From NCBI RefSeq assembly GCF_030268045.1, contig NZ_BSDC01000001.1:1116001-1180000 (forward strand): a DNA stretch of 64,000 bases, written 5' to 3'. A program made the translations under genes and the position numbers. This stretch comes from Geothrix edaphica. GTDB taxonomy: Bacteria; Acidobacteriota; Holophagae; Holophagales; Holophagaceae. This document shows positions 22,701 to 32,901 of this stretch, piece by piece. The notes under the pieces were generated by a model. That model did no database searches and was not told where the DNA came from. It saw only the letters and a program-made list of their open reading frames with translations. The number at the start of each line of letters is the position of its first letter. The stretch's first letter is position 1.

Positions 22701-22739
22701 GGGCCTGGCTTCAGGGCCTGGCTTCAGGGCCTGGCTTCA
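22701..22739. repeat. Three perfect 13-base direct repeats at the end of spoVG
   Basis: GGGCCTGGCTTCA is repeated three times without a gap or mismatch. On the minus strand each unit begins TGA, and the first of them supplies the spoVG stop codon, so the array carries the stop codon three times. Confidence 0.9.
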
Positions 22740-23096
22740 GGGGTTGGTCTTGGGGGTGAAGCCGAACTCTTCGACGCCCAGGAGGTCGGGGCGCACCTGG
22801 GCGGCCTCGCCGCGCTCGATGCGGCTGAGGGCGCGGTGGCCGGTGGCGGTCTCGTAGGCCAGCAGCACCTTCTCCTCGATCTGCTCGCGGAGGTTGTTGT
22901 TCAGGGGATAGGCGATGTCCTTGAAGCTGCCGTCGCGCTTGCGGCGGCTGGGCATGGCCACGAAGTAGCCGTCTTCGCCCTCCACCACCCGCAGGTCCCC
23001 CACCAGGAAGCAGTCGTCGATGACCAGGCCGGCGAAGGCCCGCAGCTTGTCGTCGCCTTCCACCTTGGTGATGCGGATGTCGGTGATATTGAGCAT
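22737..23096 (-). CDS. spoVG: SpoVG-family RNA/DNA-binding regulator
   Basis: A 119-residue SpoVG homologue. The N-terminal half is the conserved fold (MLNITDIRITKVEGDDKLRAFAGLVIDDCFLVGDLRVVEG), followed by FVAMPSRRKRDGSFKDIAYPLNNNLREQIEEKVL. SpoVG binds nucleic acid and affects septation, capsule and virulence genes in Gram-positives and spirochaetes, and also occurs in diderm soil bacteria. It follows pgeF after 48 bases, so it may share the D-Ala-D-Ala peptidase transcript. The C-terminal 30 residues are less conserved. Confidence 0.92.
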   Translation of the reverse strand: MLNITDIRITKVEGDDKLRAFAGLVIDDCFLVGDLRVVEGEDGYFVAMPSRRKRDGSFKDIAYPLNNNLREQIEEKVLLAYETATGHRALSRIERGEAAQVRPDLLGVEEFGFTPKTNP

Positions 23097-23144: not shown

Positions 23145-23822
23145 TTAGCCGATCTCGACCCAGCCCCACTGGCGGCCGGTGGTCTCGCCGCGGCGGTAGG
23201 AGTAGAGCAGATCGGGGCGGCACACGGTGCAGAGCGCCACGCTACCTTCCTTCCCGGGATCCAAGCCAAGGCTCAGGGCCTGGGCGCGCAGGAAGCCGTG
23301 CAGATCGAGGTGGGCCCTTCCGGAGGGGCCCTCGCTGCGCAGGCCCTCATCCCAGGCGGGATCCTGCCGGGCGGCGGCGATGACTTCGTCGCCCACCTCG
23401 AAGTGGCAGGCCAGGATGGCGGGACCGAAGGCCCACACCAGCTCCGCCGGACGACCGCCCAGGGCGCGGTAGCGGGCCACGCCGCGCCGCAGGATGCCGC
23501 GGCCCGGCCCGGGGAAGGGGCTGTCATCGCCATGCCCCGTGGCGCCGCGCCAGCCTGCATGCAGGGCGGCCACCCAGGGCGTGCCATCGGCCAGGGGACC
23601 GGCCAGCAGCACGGGTACGCAGTCGGCGACGCGCACACCGATGCGGACGCCGGGGTGGGTGGTCCAGAGGCCATCGGCCTCCACCACCGCGTCGGTGGCC
23701 TCCACCACGCCGCAGCGATGCACCTGGTTCAGGCGCCGCTCGGGCAGGGCCTCCGGGGGATCCTGCCGGGTGGAGAAGCCCCAGGCCAGCGGGAAGGGAG
23801 GCCGGACATCAGGCGTGAGCAA
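23145..23822 (-). CDS. pgeF: Peptidoglycan editing factor / multicopper-polyphenol-oxidase-like YfiH family protein
   Basis: A 225-residue member of the YfiH/LACC1 family, linked both to removal of wrongly inserted serine from peptidoglycan precursors and to purine nucleoside phosphorolysis. Signature residues are present: NQVHR, RVADCVPVLL, AALHAGWRGA, FGPAILACHFEVG and the C-terminal CRPDLLYSYRR. The metal-binding His/Cys/His set is intact. TTG start 7 bases after the peptidase stop, so translation is probably coupled; no ATG lies nearby. Its place beside a D,D-peptidase fits a cell-wall role. Confidence 0.88.
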   Translation of the reverse strand: MLTPDVRPPFPLAWGFSTRQDPPEALPERRLNQVHRCGVVEATDAVVEADGLWTTHPGVRIGVRVADCVPVLLAGPLADGTPWVAALHAGWRGATGHGDDSPFPGPGRGILRRGVARYRALGGRPAELVWAFGPAILACHFEVGDEVIAAARQDPAWDEGLRSEGPSGRAHLDLHGFLRAQALSLGLDPGKEGSVALCTVCRPDLLYSYRRGETTGRQWGWVEIG

Positions 23823-23829
23823 GGAGGCC

Positions 23830-24666
23830 TCAGCCCTTGGGGCCGAGACGGCCTTCCAGCCACGACTTGATGCGGTTGGCGTCGCCCAGGCGGCTGTACT
23901 TGCCCCAGGAATCCAGCAGGATGATGAGCACGGGCCGGTTGGCCAGCATGGCCTGCATCACCAGGCAGCGGCCGGCCTCTTCGATGTAGCCGGTCTTGGA
24001 GAGGCCGATGTTCCACCGGGGGCTGCGCACCAGGGCGTTGGTGTTGGGGAACTGGATGCTGCGGCGGCCGGCCTGGATGGTGGTCTCGGACCGGGTGGTG
24101 AAGTCGCGGATCTCGGGGTAGCGGTAGGCGGCTTCCAGGATCCGGGCCAGGTCGTGGGCGGAGGCGACGTTGCCGGCGGAAAGGCCGGAGGGATCCTCGA
24201 ACCGGGTCTCCGCCAGGCCGAGCTCCCGGGCCTTGGCGTTCATCGCCTGGACGAAGGCGGTGAGGCCGCCGGGGAAGGTGCGGCCCAGGGCATGGGCGGC
24301 GCGGTTCTCCGAGGCCAGCAGGGCCAGCAGGAGAGCCTGCTCGCGGGGGAGGCGGGTGCCCACGGGGAGGCGGGACCTGCTGTGGCGCAGCATGTCCATG
24401 TCCTCGCGGGTGATGGTGAGCGTCTCCTGGGGGTCCAGGCGGGCATCCAGCAGCACCATGGCCGTCATCAGCTTGGTGAGAGAGGCGATGGGCTGGACGG
24501 CCCCGGCCTGCTTCTCGATCAGGGCCTGGCCCGTGACCTGGTCCAGCACCAGGGCCGAGGCGGACTTCAGCGAGAGCTTGGCCGGGGTGCGGGGGGCCGC
24601 CTGCAGGGCCGTGAGGGCCGCGCAGCACAAAAATCCCACCCTTCGGATGCCCCGGCTGAATCCCAT
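23830..24666 (-). CDS. D-alanyl-D-alanine carboxypeptidase/endopeptidase (PBP7/DacA-like)
   Basis: A 278-residue exported penicillin-binding protein. A signal peptide (about 1-24, RRVGFLCCAALTALQAAP) precedes the SxxN/K catalytic set: Ser62-Leu-Thr-Lys65, Ser120-Glu-Asn122 and Lys225-Thr-Gly. It trims or cuts peptidoglycan cross-links in the periplasm. It lacks the C-terminal domain of DacA-type enzymes and is near PBP7 in size. GGAG lies 6 bases before the ATG. It leads the group peptidase-pgeF-spoVG. A Fur-box-like sequence sits 14 bases upstream of the start. Confidence 0.9.
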   Translation of the reverse strand: MGFSRGIRRVGFLCCAALTALQAAPRTPAKLSLKSASALVLDQVTGQALIEKQAGAVQPIASLTKLMTAMVLLDARLDPQETLTITREDMDMLRHSRSRLPVGTRLPREQALLLALLASENRAAHALGRTFPGGLTAFVQAMNAKARELGLAETRFEDPSGLSAGNVASAHDLARILEAAYRYPEIRDFTTRSETTIQAGRRSIQFPNTNALVRSPRWNIGLSKTGYIEEAGRCLVMQAMLANRPVLIILLDSWGKYSRLGDANRIKSWLEGRLGPKG

Positions 24667-24680
24667 GCCCGCTCCATGAA

Positions 24681-24699
24681 GATAACGATTGTCATCACC
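24681..24699. promoter_or_regulatory. Fur-box-like site upstream of the D,D-peptidase gene
   Basis: On the minus strand GGTGATGACAATCGTTATC matches 15 of 19 positions of the Fur consensus GATAATGATAATCATTATC. It ends 14 bases before the peptidase start. A Fur-family gene is present at 37243. Zinc or manganese family members bind similar sites, so the metal is open. Confidence 0.45.
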
Positions 24700-24748
24700 C
24701 ATTCCCAGTCTACTGGATCGGATGGACGATGCCTTCATTAGAAATTGG

Positions 24749-25651
24749 TCAGGGCCAGAGCAGGACCAAAAGGCTTAGGTCCGTCACGGCCCAGGCACCC
24801 AGACCCCAATACATGCCAGTTTCGTGCCGCCGGTCGGTCCAGGTGCGCCAGCCCCTCATCCAGGGCAGGAGGACGCCCAGCCAGCCCGCCAGGGAGGGCA
24901 CCAGGAACAGGGCGTTCCGCCCCCGGGCCAGGGCTGCGGCGCCGAACAGCAGGTGGGCTGCCGCAGCGGCCGCCAGGGCCAGGGCCAGGCTCCGGCCCAC
25001 CCCCAGGCGGATCACGAGGGTGCGGTCACCGCGGGCGGTGTCCTCGGCCACCTGGTAGATCTGGGTCATGGGGTAGAGGGCGGCGAAGAGGAAGGCGAAA
25101 CCCCAACAGGCCCACCAGATGGCTCCGTCAAAGGGCCTTCCCGTGAGGGCCCAGCCAGCCAGGGGCGTGAACAGGCCGAAGCCGAGGCAATTGATGAGCA
25201 GGTCCCAGCCGGCCCGGGCCTTGAGCCGCACCGGGGGCACGGAATACAGCACGCTCATGACCACGCAGGCGAGGTTGAGCAGGGCGAAGGGCCTGGGTAG
25301 CAGGAAGCCCAGGAGGGCGGAGGCGGCCAACAGCAGTGAGGAGAATGCCAGCAGGTGTTCGGGCGGCTTCGGTGGCGCCTTCAGGTAGCCGATGTCGCCC
25401 TCATCCTTGTCGAAGGCGCTGTTGATGGCGAGGGTGCCGCCGTTGAGCAGGGCGACGAAGACCAGCCACCCCAGCAGGGTGGGGCGGGCCCGCAGGGCCC
25501 AGCCCGCGGCCAGCAGGGTGCCCAGCAGGAAGTGCGCCGTCATGATGGGCCACTCCAGCGGGCGCAGGTGGAGCAGGTAGGCCAGGGCCCGGGGGCCCAG
25601 GAGGCGCTGGAAGAAGGCCCGGATGGGGAAGGCCGGGGCGTCCCCGGTCAC
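24749..25651 (-). CDS. UbiA-family membrane prenyltransferase
   Basis: A 300-residue polytopic protein of about eight or nine helices. The first Asp motif is NSAFDKDEGD (Asn77, Asp81, Asp86) and the second YQVAEDTARGDRTLVIRLG, the Mg-diphosphate sites of aromatic and tetrapyrrole prenyltransferases. The first motif has one extra residue before its last Asp compared with the common NDxxDxxxD. The acceptor (quinone precursor, haem, chlorin-like or lipid head group) cannot be told. The GTG start overlaps the DUF116 stop (GTGA), so it is the last gene of the Mla operon. Confidence 0.88.
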   Translation of the reverse strand: MTGDAPAFPIRAFFQRLLGPRALAYLLHLRPLEWPIMTAHFLLGTLLAAGWALRARPTLLGWLVFVALLNGGTLAINSAFDKDEGDIGYLKAPPKPPEHLLAFSSLLLAASALLGFLLPRPFALLNLACVVMSVLYSVPPVRLKARAGWDLLINCLGFGLFTPLAGWALTGRPFDGAIWWACWGFAFLFAALYPMTQIYQVAEDTARGDRTLVIRLGVGRSLALALAAAAAAHLLFGAAALARGRNALFLVPSLAGWLGVLLPWMRGWRTWTDRRHETGMYWGLGAWAVTDLSLLVLLWP

Positions 25652-26436
25652 GCGATGCCTTCGTGGCGCAGGGCCTGGACCTCGCCGGAGGGCCGCCGGG
25701 GCTCCACCAGGGTCTCCATGGCGGCGAGCAGGTGGGGCACGCTGAAGTCTGTGTCCACACACATGCCGTGGGGCAGGCCCAGCGGGATCACGTAGCAGGG
25801 GATCTCGGGCATCTTGGTGAGCCCCTTGAGCAGCCGGTCCGGGCAGCTCACGGCCACGACGAGATCGGGCCGGAATTCCCGGGCCTCGCGGTAGGCCTTG
25901 TGGCTGCGGTTGGTGATGCGGCCCTCCCAGCGGTTCGTCAGCACCAGGTTCATGTAGTCGCCCACGGGGCACAGGCCGCAGTCGTAGCAGGCCTGGAGGT
26001 CATCGAGGATGCCGGCCTTGCAGCGGGCCATCTGGATGCAGTGGGGCAGCAGGATGAGGGCCCGCTTGGCGCGGCGGTCGCTGAAGGCCTCGCGGACCCG
26101 CCGGTTGTTGTCGCCGCAATAGGAGAGGATCCACGCGTCCTCCTGACCCAGCCAGCGGGCGAGGGGGCGGAAGGCGTGGGCCCAGATGCTGTCCTGCCGC
26201 CGGACGGCCGTCCGGTTCCGCAGGAAGGCTTCGCCCCGCAGGAAACTCGGCCAGGCCGCTGCGAGGGCCGTCACGCCCGCCAGCAGCCACCAGCCGCGAC
26301 CGGCGGAGTGAAAGGCCGCGCCCAGGAAGGCGAAGGCCGCGGCGGCCAGCGGCACACCCCGGCGGACCCAGAGGAACAGCACGCCCCGCTCCTCCGGCAG
26401 GGAGCCGGGGAGGGGCAGGGCGCGGGGTTCCTTCAC
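25648..26436 (-). CDS. DUF116 membrane protein with a cysteine cluster
   Basis: A 262-residue protein of unknown function. One or two membrane helices occupy residues 27-65. The soluble C-terminal part is DUF116, with Cys133, Cys139, Cys150, Cys153 and Cys156 (in PHCIQMARCK and ACYDCGLCPVGDY), then Cys198, Cys214 and Cys226. The spacing suggests an Fe-S or zinc site on the cytoplasmic face; that is inference. GTG start overlapping the MCE gene stop (GTGA), and its own stop overlaps ubiA (GTGA). This coupling to lipid-transport and prenyltransferase genes is the best functional clue. Confidence 0.85.
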   Translation of the reverse strand: MKEPRALPLPGSLPEERGVLFLWVRRGVPLAAAAFAFLGAAFHSAGRGWWLLAGVTALAAAWPSFLRGEAFLRNRTAVRRQDSIWAHAFRPLARWLGQEDAWILSYCGDNNRRVREAFSDRRAKRALILLPHCIQMARCKAGILDDLQACYDCGLCPVGDYMNLVLTNRWEGRITNRSHKAYREAREFRPDLVVAVSCPDRLLKGLTKMPEIPCYVIPLGLPHGMCVDTDFSVPHLLAAMETLVEPRRPSGEVQALRHEGIA

Positions 26437-27899
26437 TTGCCGGCTCCAGCCAGGCCGATGATCTTCTTGAGATCGTCGTCCTTCCAGCGCAGGCCGCCGC
26501 CGAAGAAGATCGTGCGGAGGTCCTTGTTGCCGATGTCCTGGACGCCAGCCTGGACGTAGGCGCCCTTCCAGAACTGATAGCTGCTGGTGAACCGGTAGCG
26601 CGGGTTGGGCTTGTCGTCACGCTTGGTGAAGTCGTAGGCCAGGACGCCGAAGCGCAGCCGGTCGTTGTCCAGGGTGCGGAGTTCCACGCCGCCGCCGCCC
26701 TTGCCCTCGACGATGCCGGCGGAGAAGACTGCAGGGCCGATGCGCTTGGCGAACTGGGCGGACAGGGTGAAGCTCCGATCCGTGGTGACGAACTGGTTCC
26801 GCTCCAGCACGGTGATGGGCTGGCCGGTGACGGGGTCGAGCTGGGTGACGGTGCGGGTGCTCTCGCTCAGCTTGCCATCCGGCGTGGAGGCGAAGCCCAG
26901 GGCGTACCAGTAGTCGGGCCTGGGGGCGATCTCGAGGCCGAGGGCCACGCGGCTGTCCTTGCGCTTGTCCCACTGGGCCGCGTCCATGTCCAGACGGAAG
27001 TCCATCTTGTTGAAGCCGCCCAGCAGGCCGTTCACGTTGTCCACGGCCTCATTGATCTTCTTGATGGTGGTCTCGTCGTTGAGCAGCTTGCCGATGGTGC
27101 CCTCGCCCTTGTTGATGCGGTCGGTGAGCACCTTCAGGTTGTCGGCCGTGCCCTGGAAGCTCTGGGCCAGCTTGCGGACGTCACCCATGACGCCCTTCAG
27201 CTCGGGCCGGTTCTCTTCGAGCATGGCGTTCAGGTTCTTGCCGACCATCTCGAACTGCTGGGCGAGCTTGGGCAGCTTGTCGCGCAGATCGGCGGTGATG
27301 GCCTCGACGTTGCCCATGGTGTTGTTGATGGCGCTGTGGTTCTCCTGGGCCATGGACCGGAACTCGGCCGTCAGCACGCGGATGTTGTCCACGATCTCGT
27401 CGAGCTTCTGACGGCCCTGCTCGCCGCCGATGGACTCGTTCAGGGCCTGGGTGACACCCTTCACGTTCTTGCTGATATCAGAGAGGGACTCCATGAGGTT
27501 GTCGAGGCTGACGCCGGCCTTGCTGGGCAGGGGCTTGCCCTCGGGGAAGGGCCCCTTGGCGCTGTGGCCGGCATCCAGGTCGATGAACTTCTCCCCCAGG
27601 ATGCCGATGGAGCCCAGCGACACGAAGGCATCCGCGTAGACCGGGACATCCTGGCTCAGCCCCACCACGACGCGGGCCTTCCCGTTCTCGAGGGCGATGG
27701 TGCGGACATCACCCACCTTCACGCCGGCGATGCGTACGGCGCTCTGGACGTTGAGGCCCGCCACGGAGTCGAAGTAGGTGAAGCGCTCGGACTGGTTCTT
27801 CTTGCCGCCAATCTCCAGCTTCTCTGAACGGAAGACCAGCACCGCCAGCAGGAAGATGGCGCCGGTGAAGAAGAGGCCGACCTTGGTTTCGGGCTTCAT
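26433..27899 (-). CDS. mlaD: MCE-domain lipid transport protein (MlaD-type) with long stalk and beta-rich C-terminus
   Basis: A 488-residue protein, far longer than the roughly 180 residues of E. coli MlaD. A membrane anchor (7-24) is followed by one MCE domain (about 38-115; AGLNVQSAVRIAGVKVGDV, GSIGILGEKFIDL). Residues 130-295 are long amphipathic helix. From about 315 the chain alternates in short strands (SRVALGLEIAP, YWYALGFAST, SFTLSAQFAKRI, LRFGVLAYDF, RYRFTSSYQFW, TIFFGGGLRW) like an outer-membrane barrel. MlaD proteins with a C-terminal barrel are known from diderm Firmicutes as envelope-spanning bridges, and this has the same plan. The ATG overlaps the ATPase stop. Confidence 0.88.
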   Translation of the reverse strand: MKPETKVGLFFTGAIFLLAVLVFRSEKLEIGGKKNQSERFTYFDSVAGLNVQSAVRIAGVKVGDVRTIALENGKARVVVGLSQDVPVYADAFVSLGSIGILGEKFIDLDAGHSAKGPFPEGKPLPSKAGVSLDNLMESLSDISKNVKGVTQALNESIGGEQGRQKLDEIVDNIRVLTAEFRSMAQENHSAINNTMGNVEAITADLRDKLPKLAQQFEMVGKNLNAMLEENRPELKGVMGDVRKLAQSFQGTADNLKVLTDRINKGEGTIGKLLNDETTIKKINEAVDNVNGLLGGFNKMDFRLDMDAAQWDKRKDSRVALGLEIAPRPDYWYALGFASTPDGKLSESTRTVTQLDPVTGQPITVLERNQFVTTDRSFTLSAQFAKRIGPAVFSAGIVEGKGGGGVELRTLDNDRLRFGVLAYDFTKRDDKPNPRYRFTSSYQFWKGAYVQAGVQDIGNKDLRTIFFGGGLRWKDDDLKKIIGLAGAGK

Positions 27900-28687
27900 G
27901 TGTGGGCCTCCTGGGTTCTTCGCTTGGGCGGGGGCGGGTCCTGAAGGAAGGGACCATCCGCATCGCCCCGCAGGAACTGCTGGATGACGGGATGCGGATT
28001 GACCTTGAAGGCGGCGGGCGGCTCGCAGGCGATGCACTCACCGCGGAAGAGCAGGGCGATGCGGTCGGCGATCTCGAAGGCGGACTTGAGGTCGTGGGTG
28101 ATGGTGATGGTGGTGACGCCCAGCTCGTGCTTGAGGTCGAGGATCACGCGGCCGATGACGTCGGTCATCACGGGGTCCAGGCCCGTGGTGGGCTCGTCGA
28201 AGAGGAGGATCTTGGGCTTGAGGGCGATGGCCCGGGCGAAGCCCACGCGGCGCTTCATGCCGCCGGACAGCTCGGCGGGCTTCAGCTTGTCGGTCCCCTT
28301 CATACCGACCATGGAGAGGCACTCCTCCACCCGGGCGGCGATCTCGCCCTCGGTGTACTTGAGGTGCCGCCGCAGGCCGAAGGCCACGTTCTCGAAGACG
28401 GTCATGGAGTCGAAGAGGGCCGCCATCTGGAAGCACATGCCGATGCTCTGGCGGACCTTGAACAGCTCCTCGCGGGAGAGCTGGGCGATGATCTTGCCCT
28501 CGATGGCCACATGGCCGGAATCCGGCGTGAGCAGACCCATGATGTTGCGCAGCAGCACGGTCTTGCCGGTGCCGGAACCGCCCAGCACCACGAGGCTCTC
28601 GCCCTCCTGGACCTGGAGGTTCACATTGGACAGCACGACCTTCGGACCGAAGGCCTTGGAGAGGTTGACGACATCAATCAGGGCCAT
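27896..28687 (-). CDS. mlaF: Mla-type ABC transporter ATP-binding protein
   Basis: A 263-residue ATPase that powers lipid movement through the MlaE/MlaD complex. Walker A is GGSGTGKTVLL, the signature ELSGGMKRRVG and Walker B ILLFDEPTTGLDP, followed by TITHDLKSAF. The SGGMKRR signature wording is typical of MlaF/TtgA-type proteins. A Pro-rich tail of about 20 residues follows the core. It starts 4 bases after mlaE and overlaps mlaD by ATGA. Confidence 0.94.
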   Translation of the reverse strand: MALIDVVNLSKAFGPKVVLSNVNLQVQEGESLVVLGGSGTGKTVLLRNIMGLLTPDSGHVAIEGKIIAQLSREELFKVRQSIGMCFQMAALFDSMTVFENVAFGLRRHLKYTEGEIAARVEECLSMVGMKGTDKLKPAELSGGMKRRVGFARAIALKPKILLFDEPTTGLDPVMTDVIGRVILDLKHELGVTTITITHDLKSAFEIADRIALLFRGECIACEPPAAFKVNPHPVIQQFLRGDADGPFLQDPPPPKRRTQEAHT

Positions 28688-28691
28688 GCCG

Positions 28692-29468
28692 TCACACCAG
28701 CAGGAGCTTGGTCAGGAAAAAATCGGAAATCAGGATCCACAGCGAGCTGGTCACCACGCTGCTGGTGGGTGCGTTGCCCACCCCCTCGGCGCCGCCCTGC
28801 GTGCGGTAGCCCTTCCAGCAGCCCACCAGGGCGATGATCATGCCGAACACCAGGGCCTTGTAGAGCGCGATGCGGAGATCCCTGAAGGCCAGCAGCTTGT
28901 AGAACTCGTTGCCGTAGACGAAGGCGCTCTGGCCCTCGACACCCACCAGGATCATGTAGCCGCCCCAGAACCCGACGTAGATGGAGATCACGGTCAGGAG
29001 GGGGACCACGAGCACCGACGCGAGGAAGCGCGGCACGAAGAGGTAGTGGATGGGATCCGTGGCCAGGCACTCCAGGGCGTCGATCTGCTCGGTGACCTGC
29101 ATCGTTCCCAGTTCCGCGGCCATGGCCGAGCCGATGCGCCCCGAGAGCATGAGGCCCGTGATCACAGGGCCCAGCTCGCGGACGATGGCCAGGCCCTCCA
29201 CCTGGGAAGCCAGGCCTTCCGCCTGGAACTGCCGGAAGCCGAAGGCCAGCTGCACAGCGAACACCATGCTGACGGCGACGCTCGTGAGGATCACCACCGG
29301 GAGGGAGTGGACCCCCACGGCCTGGAGCTGGTTCAGCAGGTTCTTGCCGTCGAAGGGACGCTTGAAGAGGGCGACGAACGTCCGGCCCGCCAGGGTGGCG
29401 AAGTCCCCCGCGGTGTCGAGCGCTCCCAGCACGCGGGCACCAGTCTTGTCGATGAGGGTCAGAACCAT
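28692..29468 (-). CDS. mlaE: Mla-type ABC transporter permease
   Basis: A 258-residue inner-membrane permease of the MlaE family with about five or six helices. Conserved blocks include FAVQLAFGFRQFQAEGLASQVEGLAIVRELGPVITGLMLSGRIGSAMAAELGTMQVTEQIDAL and the late GCWKGYRTQGGAEGVGNAPTSSVV. GGAG lies 5 bases before the ATG. It is 21 bases downstream of glmU. The operon has no mlaC or mlaB, which suits a transporter whose MlaD reaches the outer membrane itself. Confidence 0.94.
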   Translation of the reverse strand: MVLTLIDKTGARVLGALDTAGDFATLAGRTFVALFKRPFDGKNLLNQLQAVGVHSLPVVILTSVAVSMVFAVQLAFGFRQFQAEGLASQVEGLAIVRELGPVITGLMLSGRIGSAMAAELGTMQVTEQIDALECLATDPIHYLFVPRFLASVLVVPLLTVISIYVGFWGGYMILVGVEGQSAFVYGNEFYKLLAFRDLRIALYKALVFGMIIALVGCWKGYRTQGGAEGVGNAPTSSVVTSSLWILISDFFLTKLLLV

Positions 29469-29489: not shown

Positions 29490-30887
29490 CTAGCTTAACC
29501 GAGTCTGCTTCTTCTGCCGGTCCCGCAGAAGAGCGGCGCCACCTTCACGCAGGGTCTGGGGAGTCCGGCTCAGGGCCAGGCCGTCCGCCGGTACGTCCTT
29601 GGTGATGGTGCTGCCAGCGCCGATGAGGGCCCCGTCGCCGATCGACAGCGGAGCGACCAGCTGGGTGTCCGATCCCACGAAGACGCGGCTGCCGATGAGC
29701 GTGCGGTGCTTGTTCACGCCGTCGTAGTTGCAGGTGATGACGCCGGCGCCGATGTTCGTGCCTTCGCCGATCTCCGTGTCGCCGAGGTAGGCGAGGTGGT
29801 TGGCCTTGGCGCCGCGGTGGAGCTTCGCCTTCTTGGTCTCCACGAAGTTGCCGACATGGACGCCTTCGGCCAGGTCCGTGCCCTCGCGCAGCCGGGCGAA
29901 GGGCCCCAGCTTGGCGCCCGCGCCCACCGCGGCCTGCTCGATGACGCAGTAGGGCCGGACCTCCACGCCCTCCGCCAGGGTGGAGTCGGTGATGATCGTG
30001 CCCTGGCCGATGCGGCAGCCCTCACCGATGGCGACGGAACCCTCCAGCCTCACGCCGGGTTCCAGGAGCACATCCTGCGCGAGGGTCACCCGCGGACCGA
30101 CCAGCGTGCTGTCGGGATGGAGGAAGGTCACGCCCTCGGCCATCCAGTGCCGCTGGACCCTTCGCTGGGCCGCGGCCTGGAGGGCAGCCTGGTCGTGACG
30201 GGAGTTCATGCCCGCCAGCTCCTCGGGGTCGCACACCTCCACGGCCACGGGGAGTTCCCGGGCCACGGCAGCCACCGCATCCGTGAGGTAGTACTCCTTC
30301 TGGGCGTTGTGGTTGGTGAGGCCCTGGAGGGCGCGGCGCAGGGCGGGCCAGGGCAGGGCATAGGCGCCGCCGTTCACGCGCTGGACGGCCAGCTGCTCCG
30401 GCGTGGCGTCTTTGGCCTCCACCAGGCCCGCGAGGCGGCCGTCGGCATGCTGGATCACCCGGCCGTACGAGCCGGGGGTCTGCAGGTCCATGGCCAGGAG
30501 CAGGGCGTCTGCCGAGCAGAGCCTCCGCACGGTGGCCGGAGAGGTGAGCGGCACATCGCCGCAGAGGATGGCCACCTGGGTGGCACCGAGCCGGTCCAGC
30601 TCGGGGATGCAGACCTGGAGGGCGTGACCGGTGCCGAGCGGCTCGCCCTGGTCCACGGCGGTGACGGGACAGGGCAGCAGCCCGGCCTGCCGCCAGGCCT
30701 CCAGGGCCGCCAGAACCAGCTCCTTGCCGTGATGGACCACCACGACGGCGCCGCCGAGATCCGGAGGCAGGGTCCGCAGCGCCCAGAGCAGCGACGGGTC
30801 GCCGAGGATCGGGTGCAGCACCTTGGGAAGCCGGGATTTCATGCGGGTTCCGAGTCCCGCCGCCAGGATCACCGCCACCGTCGACAT
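29490..30887 (-). CDS. glmU: Bifunctional UDP-GlcNAc pyrophosphorylase / glucosamine-1-phosphate acetyltransferase
   Basis: A 465-residue enzyme making UDP-GlcNAc for peptidoglycan and LPS. The N-terminal uridyltransferase has VAVILAAGLGTRMKSRLPKVLHP, QGEPLGTGHAL and CGDVPLTSPAT. The C-terminal left-handed beta-helix acetyltransferase has hexapeptide repeats and the conserved NFVETKKAKLHRGAKANHLAYLGD and GAGVITCNYDGVNKHRT. GGAGG lies 5 bases before the ATG. It precedes mlaE by 21 bases and so probably shares a transcript with the lipid-transport genes. Confidence 0.96.
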   Translation of the reverse strand: MSTVAVILAAGLGTRMKSRLPKVLHPILGDPSLLWALRTLPPDLGGAVVVVHHGKELVLAALEAWRQAGLLPCPVTAVDQGEPLGTGHALQVCIPELDRLGATQVAILCGDVPLTSPATVRRLCSADALLLAMDLQTPGSYGRVIQHADGRLAGLVEAKDATPEQLAVQRVNGGAYALPWPALRRALQGLTNHNAQKEYYLTDAVAAVARELPVAVEVCDPEELAGMNSRHDQAALQAAAQRRVQRHWMAEGVTFLHPDSTLVGPRVTLAQDVLLEPGVRLEGSVAIGEGCRIGQGTIITDSTLAEGVEVRPYCVIEQAAVGAGAKLGPFARLREGTDLAEGVHVGNFVETKKAKLHRGAKANHLAYLGDTEIGEGTNIGAGVITCNYDGVNKHRTLIGSRVFVGSDTQLVAPLSIGDGALIGAGSTITKDVPADGLALSRTPQTLREGGAALLRDRQKKQTRLS

Positions 30888-30924: not shown

Positions 30925-32901
30925 TCACTCCGCCGGCTCCCGCAGCAGGGCCAGCACGGACTTGCCGAAGGCCGCGGGCTCGAAGGGCTTTTCCAGGAAG
31001 CCGATCCGGCGCAGGCCCAGGGACGCCGGGTCCATGGGCAGGGGCTGGTCCATGCCGATCACCAGGGTGGGTATGGGCTCTTTCTGGAAAGTGCGGAGCG
31101 CCCGGTGGAAGCGCTCCAGTTTCGGCGTCCGCTCGAGCACCAGCACGTCCGGCTGGGCCAGTCCGCGGCTCCCCCGCAGGAGCTTCGGCAGGTCTTCGAA
31201 CGTCCCGGCCTGGCCCCCCAGCTGCCAGACCAGGTCTGCGAGGGCGCTCCGGACCAGCGGATCGCGGTCCACGATCCAGAGGGTCCGCCCTGAGAGCAGC
31301 GCGCCCGCCAGAGGCCGGACCGGCGCAGCCACGGGCAGGTAGACCCGGGGCCGCACCCCCGAGCGGGCATCCTGCTCCAGCTCCAGCATGCCGCCGGCCT
31401 CCAGCACGGATTGGCGCAACCACCCGAGGCCGAACAGCTCCCGGGTCCAGCCCCCGGGCCCTCCCACCGGCTCCGCATGGAGCAGTCCGAAGCCATGGCC
31501 CCCCAGGTCCGCGGCCTCGAGGGTCAGCACCAGGTCTTCGCGGCCCGTGCGTTCCCTGGCATGGAGCAGGAGCTGCGTGGCGATGCGCTTCAGGGCCTCC
31601 GCCTCCACGGCCAGAGACAGGGATGCGGCCCTGAGCTCCATGCTCCGGCCCGCCGGGAGAAGCCTCCGGAGGCCCGGCAGCAGCGCCTCCAGCGTGGCCC
31701 GGCCCTCCACTGGTCCGCGCTCCGGCTGAGTCGGCGACAGCCTCCGGGTGGCCTCCCCCACGCGCTCGGCGGCCTCCCGGAGCGGGCCTGCCGGAGCATC
31801 CGACAGCAGCCGGTCGGCGGCGGCGGCGAGGGCCAGCATCGCGTTGGCGCCTAGCCTCCGCTGCTCCTCGTCGCCGCCGGACCGGGGGGAGGCGCCGGCC
31901 CGCAGGGACAGGGCCCCGGCGACGGCATTGGCGATCCACACCAGGCCCATGCCGCGGTCGAAGGCCGAGGCCTCGAGGACGACCTCGCTGAAGCTCCCGT
32001 CCTCGCTGACCTGGGTGGCGGTCACCGAGGCGCTTCCGAACTGGAGGAGCTGGTTCCGGATGGCCTGCCAGACCGGCAGCTCGCCCCCCTGGAAGAGCGC
32101 ATCCATGGGGTAGCCCCGCAGCTGGTAGCGGGGCAGGCCCACCAGCTGGCTGAAGGGACCGTTGGATTCAAGGACCCGGCCCTGGTCGTCCACCAGCCAC
32201 ATGGGCTGGCGCGGATCGAGGCCCAGGGCCAGTCCGGGCAGTTCCGCGGGCCCGGCCTTCTCCACCAGGGCCAGAGCCAGGCGGAGGCCCTGACCGCGCC
32301 CTTCCACCCAGGCGCCCTGCTCCCGGAGCCACTTCAGCTGCTGGAGGGCCACTAGGCCGAGGAGCAGGCCCGCGAGGATGGCCGAGAGCCAGGAGAAGCG
32401 GGGTGCGTCCGGAGGCAGCAGCAGCTGGGCCAGGGCGCCCGCGCCCAGGGTGAGGGCCCCGACGAGGGGCATCCGCAGCTCCAGCTGGCGTCCGTGGGTC
32501 CACCGGTAGGCCAGGTCCGAGAGGACCAGCCAGAGCAGGGCCTCCAGGGCCGCGCCGGCCCACAGGTGCAGCACGGCCTGCCAGGGCAGGTGGAGCCGGA
32601 CCAGCAGCAGGGCCAGGAAGAGGCTGGCGCTGCCCACGCCCACGGCCAGCCGGCGCACGCCCTGGACGCCCTCCCGCTGAGCCTGGAGGAAGATCGTGAA
32701 CCCGAGCAGGGCCCCGCCGAGCTGGGCGGCCGGCAGGGGCAGGCCCGTGAGGTGGCCCCAGGGCAGGGCCAGCACCGCGAGGATCCCGCCCAGGAAGTAG
32801 CCGTAGCTGAGGCCCACGCGGCCCTTGCGGCGGAAGGTCCAGAACCCCAGCCAAGGCGGAAGGGGCAGCAGCAGGGCCGAGATCAGGTCTGCGAAGGCCA
32901 T
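30925..32901 (-). CDS. Membrane PAS protein with degenerate kinase and receiver domains
   Basis: A 658-residue protein. Residues 1-190 hold about six or seven membrane helices. A PAS-like domain follows (about 228-330; DPRQPMWLVDDQGRVLESNGPFSQLVGLPRYQLRGYPMDALF). The kinase-like region (350-560) has no H-box His and no recognisable N or G boxes. The last 120 residues are a receiver fold, but the phosphoacceptor Asp is Glu590 (VLVLERTPKL), while the pocket IVDRDPL and Lys in FLEKPFEP remain. It is probably a signalling scaffold unable to phosphorylate. It sits 37 bases upstream of glmU, so a cell-envelope link is possible. Confidence 0.75.
   Translation of the reverse strand: MAFADLISALLLPLPPWLGFWTFRRKGRVGLSYGYFLGGILAVLALPWGHLTGLPLPAAQLGGALLGFTIFLQAQREGVQGVRRLAVGVGSASLFLALLLVRLHLPWQAVLHLWAGAALEALLWLVLSDLAYRWTHGRQLELRMPLVGALTLGAGALAQLLLPPDAPRFSWLSAILAGLLLGLVALQQLKWLREQGAWVEGRGQGLRLALALVEKAGPAELPGLALGLDPRQPMWLVDDQGRVLESNGPFSQLVGLPRYQLRGYPMDALFQGGELPVWQAIRNQLLQFGSASVTATQVSEDGSFSEVVLEASAFDRGMGLVWIANAVAGALSLRAGASPRSGGDEEQRRLGANAMLALAAAADRLLSDAPAGPLREAAERVGEATRRLSPTQPERGPVEGRATLEALLPGLRRLLPAGRSMELRAASLSLAVEAEALKRIATQLLLHARERTGREDLVLTLEAADLGGHGFGLLHAEPVGGPGGWTRELFGLGWLRQSVLEAGGMLELEQDARSGVRPRVYLPVAAPVRPLAGALLSGRTLWIVDRDPLVRSALADLVWQLGGQAGTFEDLPKLLRGSRGLAQPDVLVLERTPKLERFHRALRTFQKEPIPTLVIGMDQPLPMDPASLGLRRIGFLEKPFEPAAFGKSVLALLREPAE

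Follow-up and report, generated by a model that had tools for sequence, protein, structure and literature searches.

The five genes mlaE, mlaF, mlaD, DUF116 and ubiA of Geothrix edaphica are best understood, with a probability of roughly two in three, as one transcription run holding two modules: a known type of lipid bridge encoded by mlaEFD, and a separate DUF116-UbiA pair that would modify a quinone or an isoprenoid. In the window, i.e., the whole stretch of 64,000 nucleotides that was analysed, the run and its neighbors are as follows:

29490-30884, minus strand: glmU, co-directional and upstream of mlaE (TIGR01173, 506 bits, above cut-off)
28692-29468, minus strand: mlaE, an MlaE-family lipid ABC permease of 258 aa (Pfam MlaE, 6e-76; TIGR00056, 252.9 bits, above cut-off)
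27896-28687, minus strand: mlaF, an ABC ATPase of 263 aa (ABC_tran, 7e-35; best NCBIfam model PRK11831 (MlaF), 218 bits, under its cut-off of 441)
26433-27899, minus strand: mlaD, 488 aa (Pfam MlaD, 1.8e-15)
25648-26436, minus strand: DUF116 protein of 262 aa, GTG start (PF01976, 5e-24, 84.9 bits against a gathering cut-off of 25)
24749-25651, minus strand: UbiA-superfamily prenyltransferase of 300 aa, GTG start, divergent subfamily (PF01040, 5e-21, 75.6 bits against a cut-off of 34.2)
23830-24738, minus strand: D-Ala-D-Ala carboxypeptidase, downstream of ubiA (Peptidase_S11, 2e-53)
23145-23822, minus strand: YfiH/laccase-family gene, downstream (Cu-oxidase_4, 4e-39)

The initial annotation had placed the five genes here, joined by 4-base overlaps or 4-base gaps; this arrangement is real, and Pfam confirms all five. 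The gap of 4 bases lies between mlaE and mlaF, while mlaF/mlaD, mlaD/DUF116 and DUF116/UbiA overlap by 4 bases each. However, the run does not stop at five genes: it is extended upstream by glmU, 21 bases from mlaE, and downstream by the carboxypeptidase gene, 10 bases from ubiA, and the YfiH/laccase gene a further 7 bases on. A promoter-like site was sought and none was found, and terminator-like sites are no more frequent than in shuffled sequences. A SpoVG homologue (window 22737-23096) closes the same conserved block, and the host genome looks diderm. Upstream of glmU lies a 658-aa protein (window 30925-32901) that reads like a sensor/receiver and whose presence varies among relatives; it has zero Pfam matches at E 0.01.

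The linkage of mla to the DUF116-UbiA pair is a trait of the host's own family, f1 (f labels stand for families, g for genera, G for genomes and L for loci), often kept but not fixed. The window-type DUF116 is found in 38 of the 39 f1 genomes sampled, and the order glmU-mlaE-mlaF-mlaD-DUF116-ubiA is kept in all 17 f1 relatives examined over 15-16 kb each, at 40-97% protein identity. Across related genomes glmU-mlaEFD-DUF116-ubiA recurs in seven of the nine genera of the family, and thus the adjacency is not peculiar to this genome; its recurrence in several genera at such identities also argues against chance. In the main genus the conserved block is larger, namely pdxA-HK-glmU-mla-DUF116-ubiA-dac-laccase-spoVG. 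Roughly half of these 17 relatives have 4-base overlaps at both mlaD-DUF116 and DUF116-UbiA, and many g1 genomes show translational coupling of mlaD and DUF116. In the main genus the mlaD-DUF116 spacing spans -4 to 299 bases. The order is also kept in g5, g2 and g120, the last with contig ends interrupting DUF116.

It is the deviations in g168, g3, g169 and g121 that mark the linkage as not fixed. The mlaD-DUF116 adjacency is kept in g168, where a 1-kb gene separates DUF116 from UbiA in two of three genomes, and the same kind of gene sits at this point in g3. It codes for a PIG3-type NAD(P)H:quinone-reductase-like protein (L040:6706-7698 and L226:4992-5960; the second g168 copy was read by eye). 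Not all PIG3-type genes are quinone reductases. In g169 (G308) an insert of about 3.1 kb separates mlaD from DUF116, its genes, among them a LysR-like regulator, having been identified by eye, and the DUF116-UbiA pair remains intact about 19 bases apart. In g121 (G292) mla, DUF116 and UbiA lie on three separate contigs, with the laccase gene as the sole neighbor retained by UbiA. Among the flanking genes, glmU-mlaE adjacency is conserved in the family and the YfiH/laccase gene adjoins ubiA in most of its genera, whereas the carboxypeptidase was not found at this site in other genera. As neighbors, glmU, laccase and spoVG are conserved to roughly the same degree as DUF116.

Judged by its modelled structure, mlaEFD belongs to the minimal transenvelope Mla type known from Veillonella. 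In Veillonella parvula a long MlaD is reported to work without MlaA and MlaC, a type said to be widespread (PMC10665443); a system of this type would move glycerophospholipid, and its loss would result in hypervesiculation. As in Veillonella parvula, mlaE, mlaF and an MCE-bearing mlaD are all present and stand alone, MlaA and MlaC are missing, mlaF overlaps mlaD, and the long MlaD combines a TM helix, an MCE domain, a helical stretch and a C-terminal barrel; the two differ in the length of MlaD (488 aa here against 419) and in the genes 3' of mlaEFD, which are tolC and tamB in Veillonella parvula and DUF116 and ubiA here (PMC10665443). In the AF2 model of MlaD the TM helix is followed by the MCE domain (about 36-112), helices at 132-297 and a C-terminal barrel at 298-472 with twelve strands in 300-472; mean pLDDT is 58 and the barrel mostly scores 60-79, so that an outer-membrane-type barrel is predicted at moderate model confidence. 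With VIA-align, residues 298-472 match the outer-membrane barrels of OpcA (139 residues, Z 15.6), a Legionella porin (164 residues, Z 14.8) and OmpT (Z 10.6), and residues 34-129 match E. coli MlaD (Z 15.6). The E. coli system (MlaABCDEF) has MlaE, MlaF and MlaD's MCE domain in common with it; the two differ in that our genome lacks MlaA and MlaC, the operon lacks mlaB, and MlaD is far longer with a barrel added.

The earlier claim that MlaC and MlaB are absent stands genome-wide for MlaC: both MlaC and MlaA gave zero matches across the whole genome, with positive controls in E. coli and Caulobacter. For MlaB it stands within the operon, where a local search did not find the gene. Because mlaEFD matches the minimal Veillonella-type system, the missing MlaC and MlaA are what one would expect, and since a barrel-bearing MlaD explains their absence, a new partner is not required. 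By analogy, mlaEFD probably carries lipids from one membrane to the other, and it adds an Acidobacteriota example to the barrel-bearing MlaD systems. Elsewhere the genome codes for a second MCE protein of 321 aa with its own MlaE (G000:C1:801973-802200; L188).

The two modules are independent in their distribution. In G115 and G190, which represent sister families within the class, mlaEFD includes a long MlaD and is followed by different genes, and both DUF116 and the window-type UbiA are absent. Conversely, in f74, a distant Acidobacteriota family, a DUF116 profile search recovered DUF116 immediately upstream of the same UbiA subfamily (G271; 33% and 47% identity, respectively, to the window proteins), with no mla genes in the stretch read. 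There, mqnE (TIGR03700, 471 bits, above cut-off) precedes DUF116 with a 4-base overlap, and 4 bases separate the DUF116 stop from UbiA, provided that UbiA starts at TTG 3276. In a second f74 genome (G247) the contig starts within DUF116, with UbiA next. A3-type MlaD was found in neither f74 genome, mqnE adjoins the pair in one genus only, and a class-wide search around f74 yielded no third case of the pair. The initial annotation knew of no described system with this gene set; the mlaEFD half has in fact been described in Veillonella (PMC10665443), while we found neither a published description of a DUF116-UbiA pair nor literature on mlaE with prenyltransferase neighbors. DUF116-UbiA is thus an undescribed, recurring pair.

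Textbook UbiA enzymes carry the metal-binding motifs NDxxDxxxD and DxxxD. The Pfam UbiA domain spans nearly the full length of the window protein, and both acidic loops expected of Mg-diphosphate binding are there, but in altered form: motif I reads N77-D81-D83-E84-G85-D86 (N-x3-D-x-D-E-G-D), with Gly replacing the usual third Asp, and motif II reads Q200-D204, with Gln replacing the usual first Asp. These alterations raise the possibility that the enzyme may act on an unusual substrate or with changed catalysis. It also differs from the rest of the superfamily in that no NCBIfam subfamily fits, the best score in the comparison with the curated MqnP/CtaB models being 28 bits against a cut-off of 212. 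The closest solved structure is 4tq3 (5e-8), which we take to be the Archaeoglobus UbiA. The genome encodes four further UbiA proteins, i.e., an MqnP-like copy that exceeds the TIGR01475 cut-off, a CtaB-like copy (184 bits against a cut-off of 210), and two fusions. By these matches the window UbiA is neither the genome's housekeeping MqnP-type quinone enzyme nor its CtaB-type haem enzyme, both of which are encoded elsewhere. In a small UbiA tree it clusters with homologues from f74 and f14, apart from the other copies of its own genome, with support of 91/94 and long branches. EboC is another operon-borne orphan of the superfamily (PMC5133447); the NCBIfam scan, judged by model names only, returned no EboC-named model. 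Of the two fusions, one joins IspH (LytB) to UbiA in a single 584-aa frame (G000:C1:1568478-1569011; L061:3398-5149, minus strand) and the other joins a flavodoxin-type NAD(P)H-oxidoreductase-like domain to a MenA-like UbiA (G000:C1:1597487-1598236; L060:2759-4327, plus strand).

The window DUF116 displays two N-terminal hydrophobic helices, which constitute the membrane anchor noted earlier, followed by a cysteine-rich Rossmann-like domain. Its cysteines number nine rather than the eight first counted; seven (C133, C139, C150, C153, C156, C198 and C226), forming a conserved set that includes a CxxCxxC motif, are near-invariant in divergent members. The AF2 model of the fold is confident (pLDDT 87), and its likeness to known structures is Rossmann-like in general arrangement only: the best VIA-align match (Z 8.8) is to a designed protein, and a Foldseek search gave no match below E 0.001. 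A weak profile match to light-independent protochlorophyllide reductase subunit B (E 0.008) covers 44 positions. These features, namely N-terminal membrane helices, CxxCxxC with further cysteines and a Rossmann/flavodoxin-like domain, are shared with DUF116/COG1852/arCOG02078, for which a flavodoxin-like fold and Fe-S/metal binding were predicted, and an electron-transfer role proposed (PMC5898192). Our model agrees with that published fold prediction, and a redox or metal role, already in print, is plausible (PMC5898192).

Arginines flank both hydrophobic helices, before and after, according to hydropathy and charges. Under the positive-inside rule, positively charged residues mark the cytoplasmic side of membrane proteins. 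The cysteine-rich domain is therefore predicted to be cytoplasmic, making it unlikely to act on the periplasmic MlaD bridge. In two other Acidobacteriota families DUF116 continues into a polyprenyl-synthetase-like domain, which NCBIfam confirms in one (L056, at roughly 4.2-9.9 kb; G077:C161) and which was read by eye in the other (L057; G183:C85); squalene-cyclase-like and radical-SAM genes adjoin these fusions. A fusion of DUF116 to a polyprenyl synthetase is also on record from Pirellula (PMC5898192).

We posit that in the two-module reading MlaE and MlaF would form an inner-membrane ABC transporter working with MlaD oligomers anchored in the same membrane, whose MCE ring would bind lipid, whose helices would span the periplasm and whose barrel would enter the outer membrane. 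Given such a bridge, MlaA and MlaC would be dispensable, the layout coming from the model and the transport from Veillonella. DUF116 and UbiA would be inner-membrane proteins modifying a quinone or isoprenoid lipid: UbiA would transfer a prenyl group to a putative acceptor within the membrane, and DUF116, held by its two-helix tether, would act either ahead of UbiA or following it, contributing a redox or metal step through its cytoplasmic cysteine-rich domain. We place the pair in a quinone/isoprenoid context because of mqnE, the PIG3-type reductase and the polyprenyl-synthetase fusion; the pairing of DUF116 with UbiA and mqnE and that fusion offer a testable lead towards isoprenoid/quinone chemistry for DUF116, to which no function had been assigned. 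The shared run would serve joint expression of envelope-building genes (glmU, mla and the pair) rather than one machine. Several observations count against this two-module reading: mlaD-DUF116 adjacency and coupling exceed what is expected for unrelated genes, confidence in the MlaD model is moderate, the UbiA branches are long, and mqnE adjacency is limited to a single genus.

The initial annotation had instead suggested one system of five proteins that moves a lipid between membranes and modifies or uses a prenyl lipid, with a redox or metal step. In the form weighed here, UbiA would make a prenyl lipid or quinone, DUF116 would perform a redox step and MlaEFD would export the product to the outer membrane. 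The gene order shared by most of the family's genera, together with the double 4-base overlaps, speaks for it. Nevertheless, the opposite presence of pair and mla in f74 and the sister families, their separation in g169 and g121, the variable mlaD-DUF116 spacing even in the main genus, the comparable constancy of glmU, laccase and spoVG, and the predicted cytoplasmic domain together make such a machine unlikely. A related idea, in which the MlaEFD of this family would be dedicated to a prenylated lipid or redox-active quinone made by DUF116-UbiA and would deliver it across the MlaD bridge into the outer membrane, strikes us as very improbable. Were the run instead plain background synteny, with mla, DUF116 and UbiA all mutually unrelated members of a large retained block, the conserved block of the main genus would be accounted for; but the tightly coupled DUF116-UbiA recurs in distant f74 inside another block, the pair outlasts the g169 insertion, and neither subfamily is seen in the sister families, leaving this explanation quite unlikely too. 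A sharper version of the second module, less improbable than these but still unlikely, is the proposal that UbiA is a true quinone-biosynthesis prenyltransferase, for a second, specialised menaquinone or a related quinone, and that DUF116 would be the redox partner of this enzyme. The mqnE-DUF116-UbiA run of f74 and the quinone-reductase-like gene that two genera carry inside the pair favor it, whereas the MqnP-like enzyme encoded elsewhere, the failure of the window UbiA to exceed any quinone-model cut-off, its non-canonical Asp pattern and the distance even from its closest, archaeal structure count against it.

The window subfamily of DUF116, partnered with UbiA, differs from generic bacterial DUF116, which lies in def-fmt-DUF116-rsmB runs in 58 of 80 loci from many phyla (gene names by eye). 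Generic neighborhoods were considered as a clue to the pair and rejected, with neither UbiA nor an Mla operon near DUF116 at any of the 80 loci; a search for A7-type UbiA in 28 genomes with generic DUF116 gave just two weak matches with different motifs. In families f9 and f20 (L053, L054, L055) DUF116 adjoins genes that read by eye as 2-oxoacid:ferredoxin-oxidoreductase-like.
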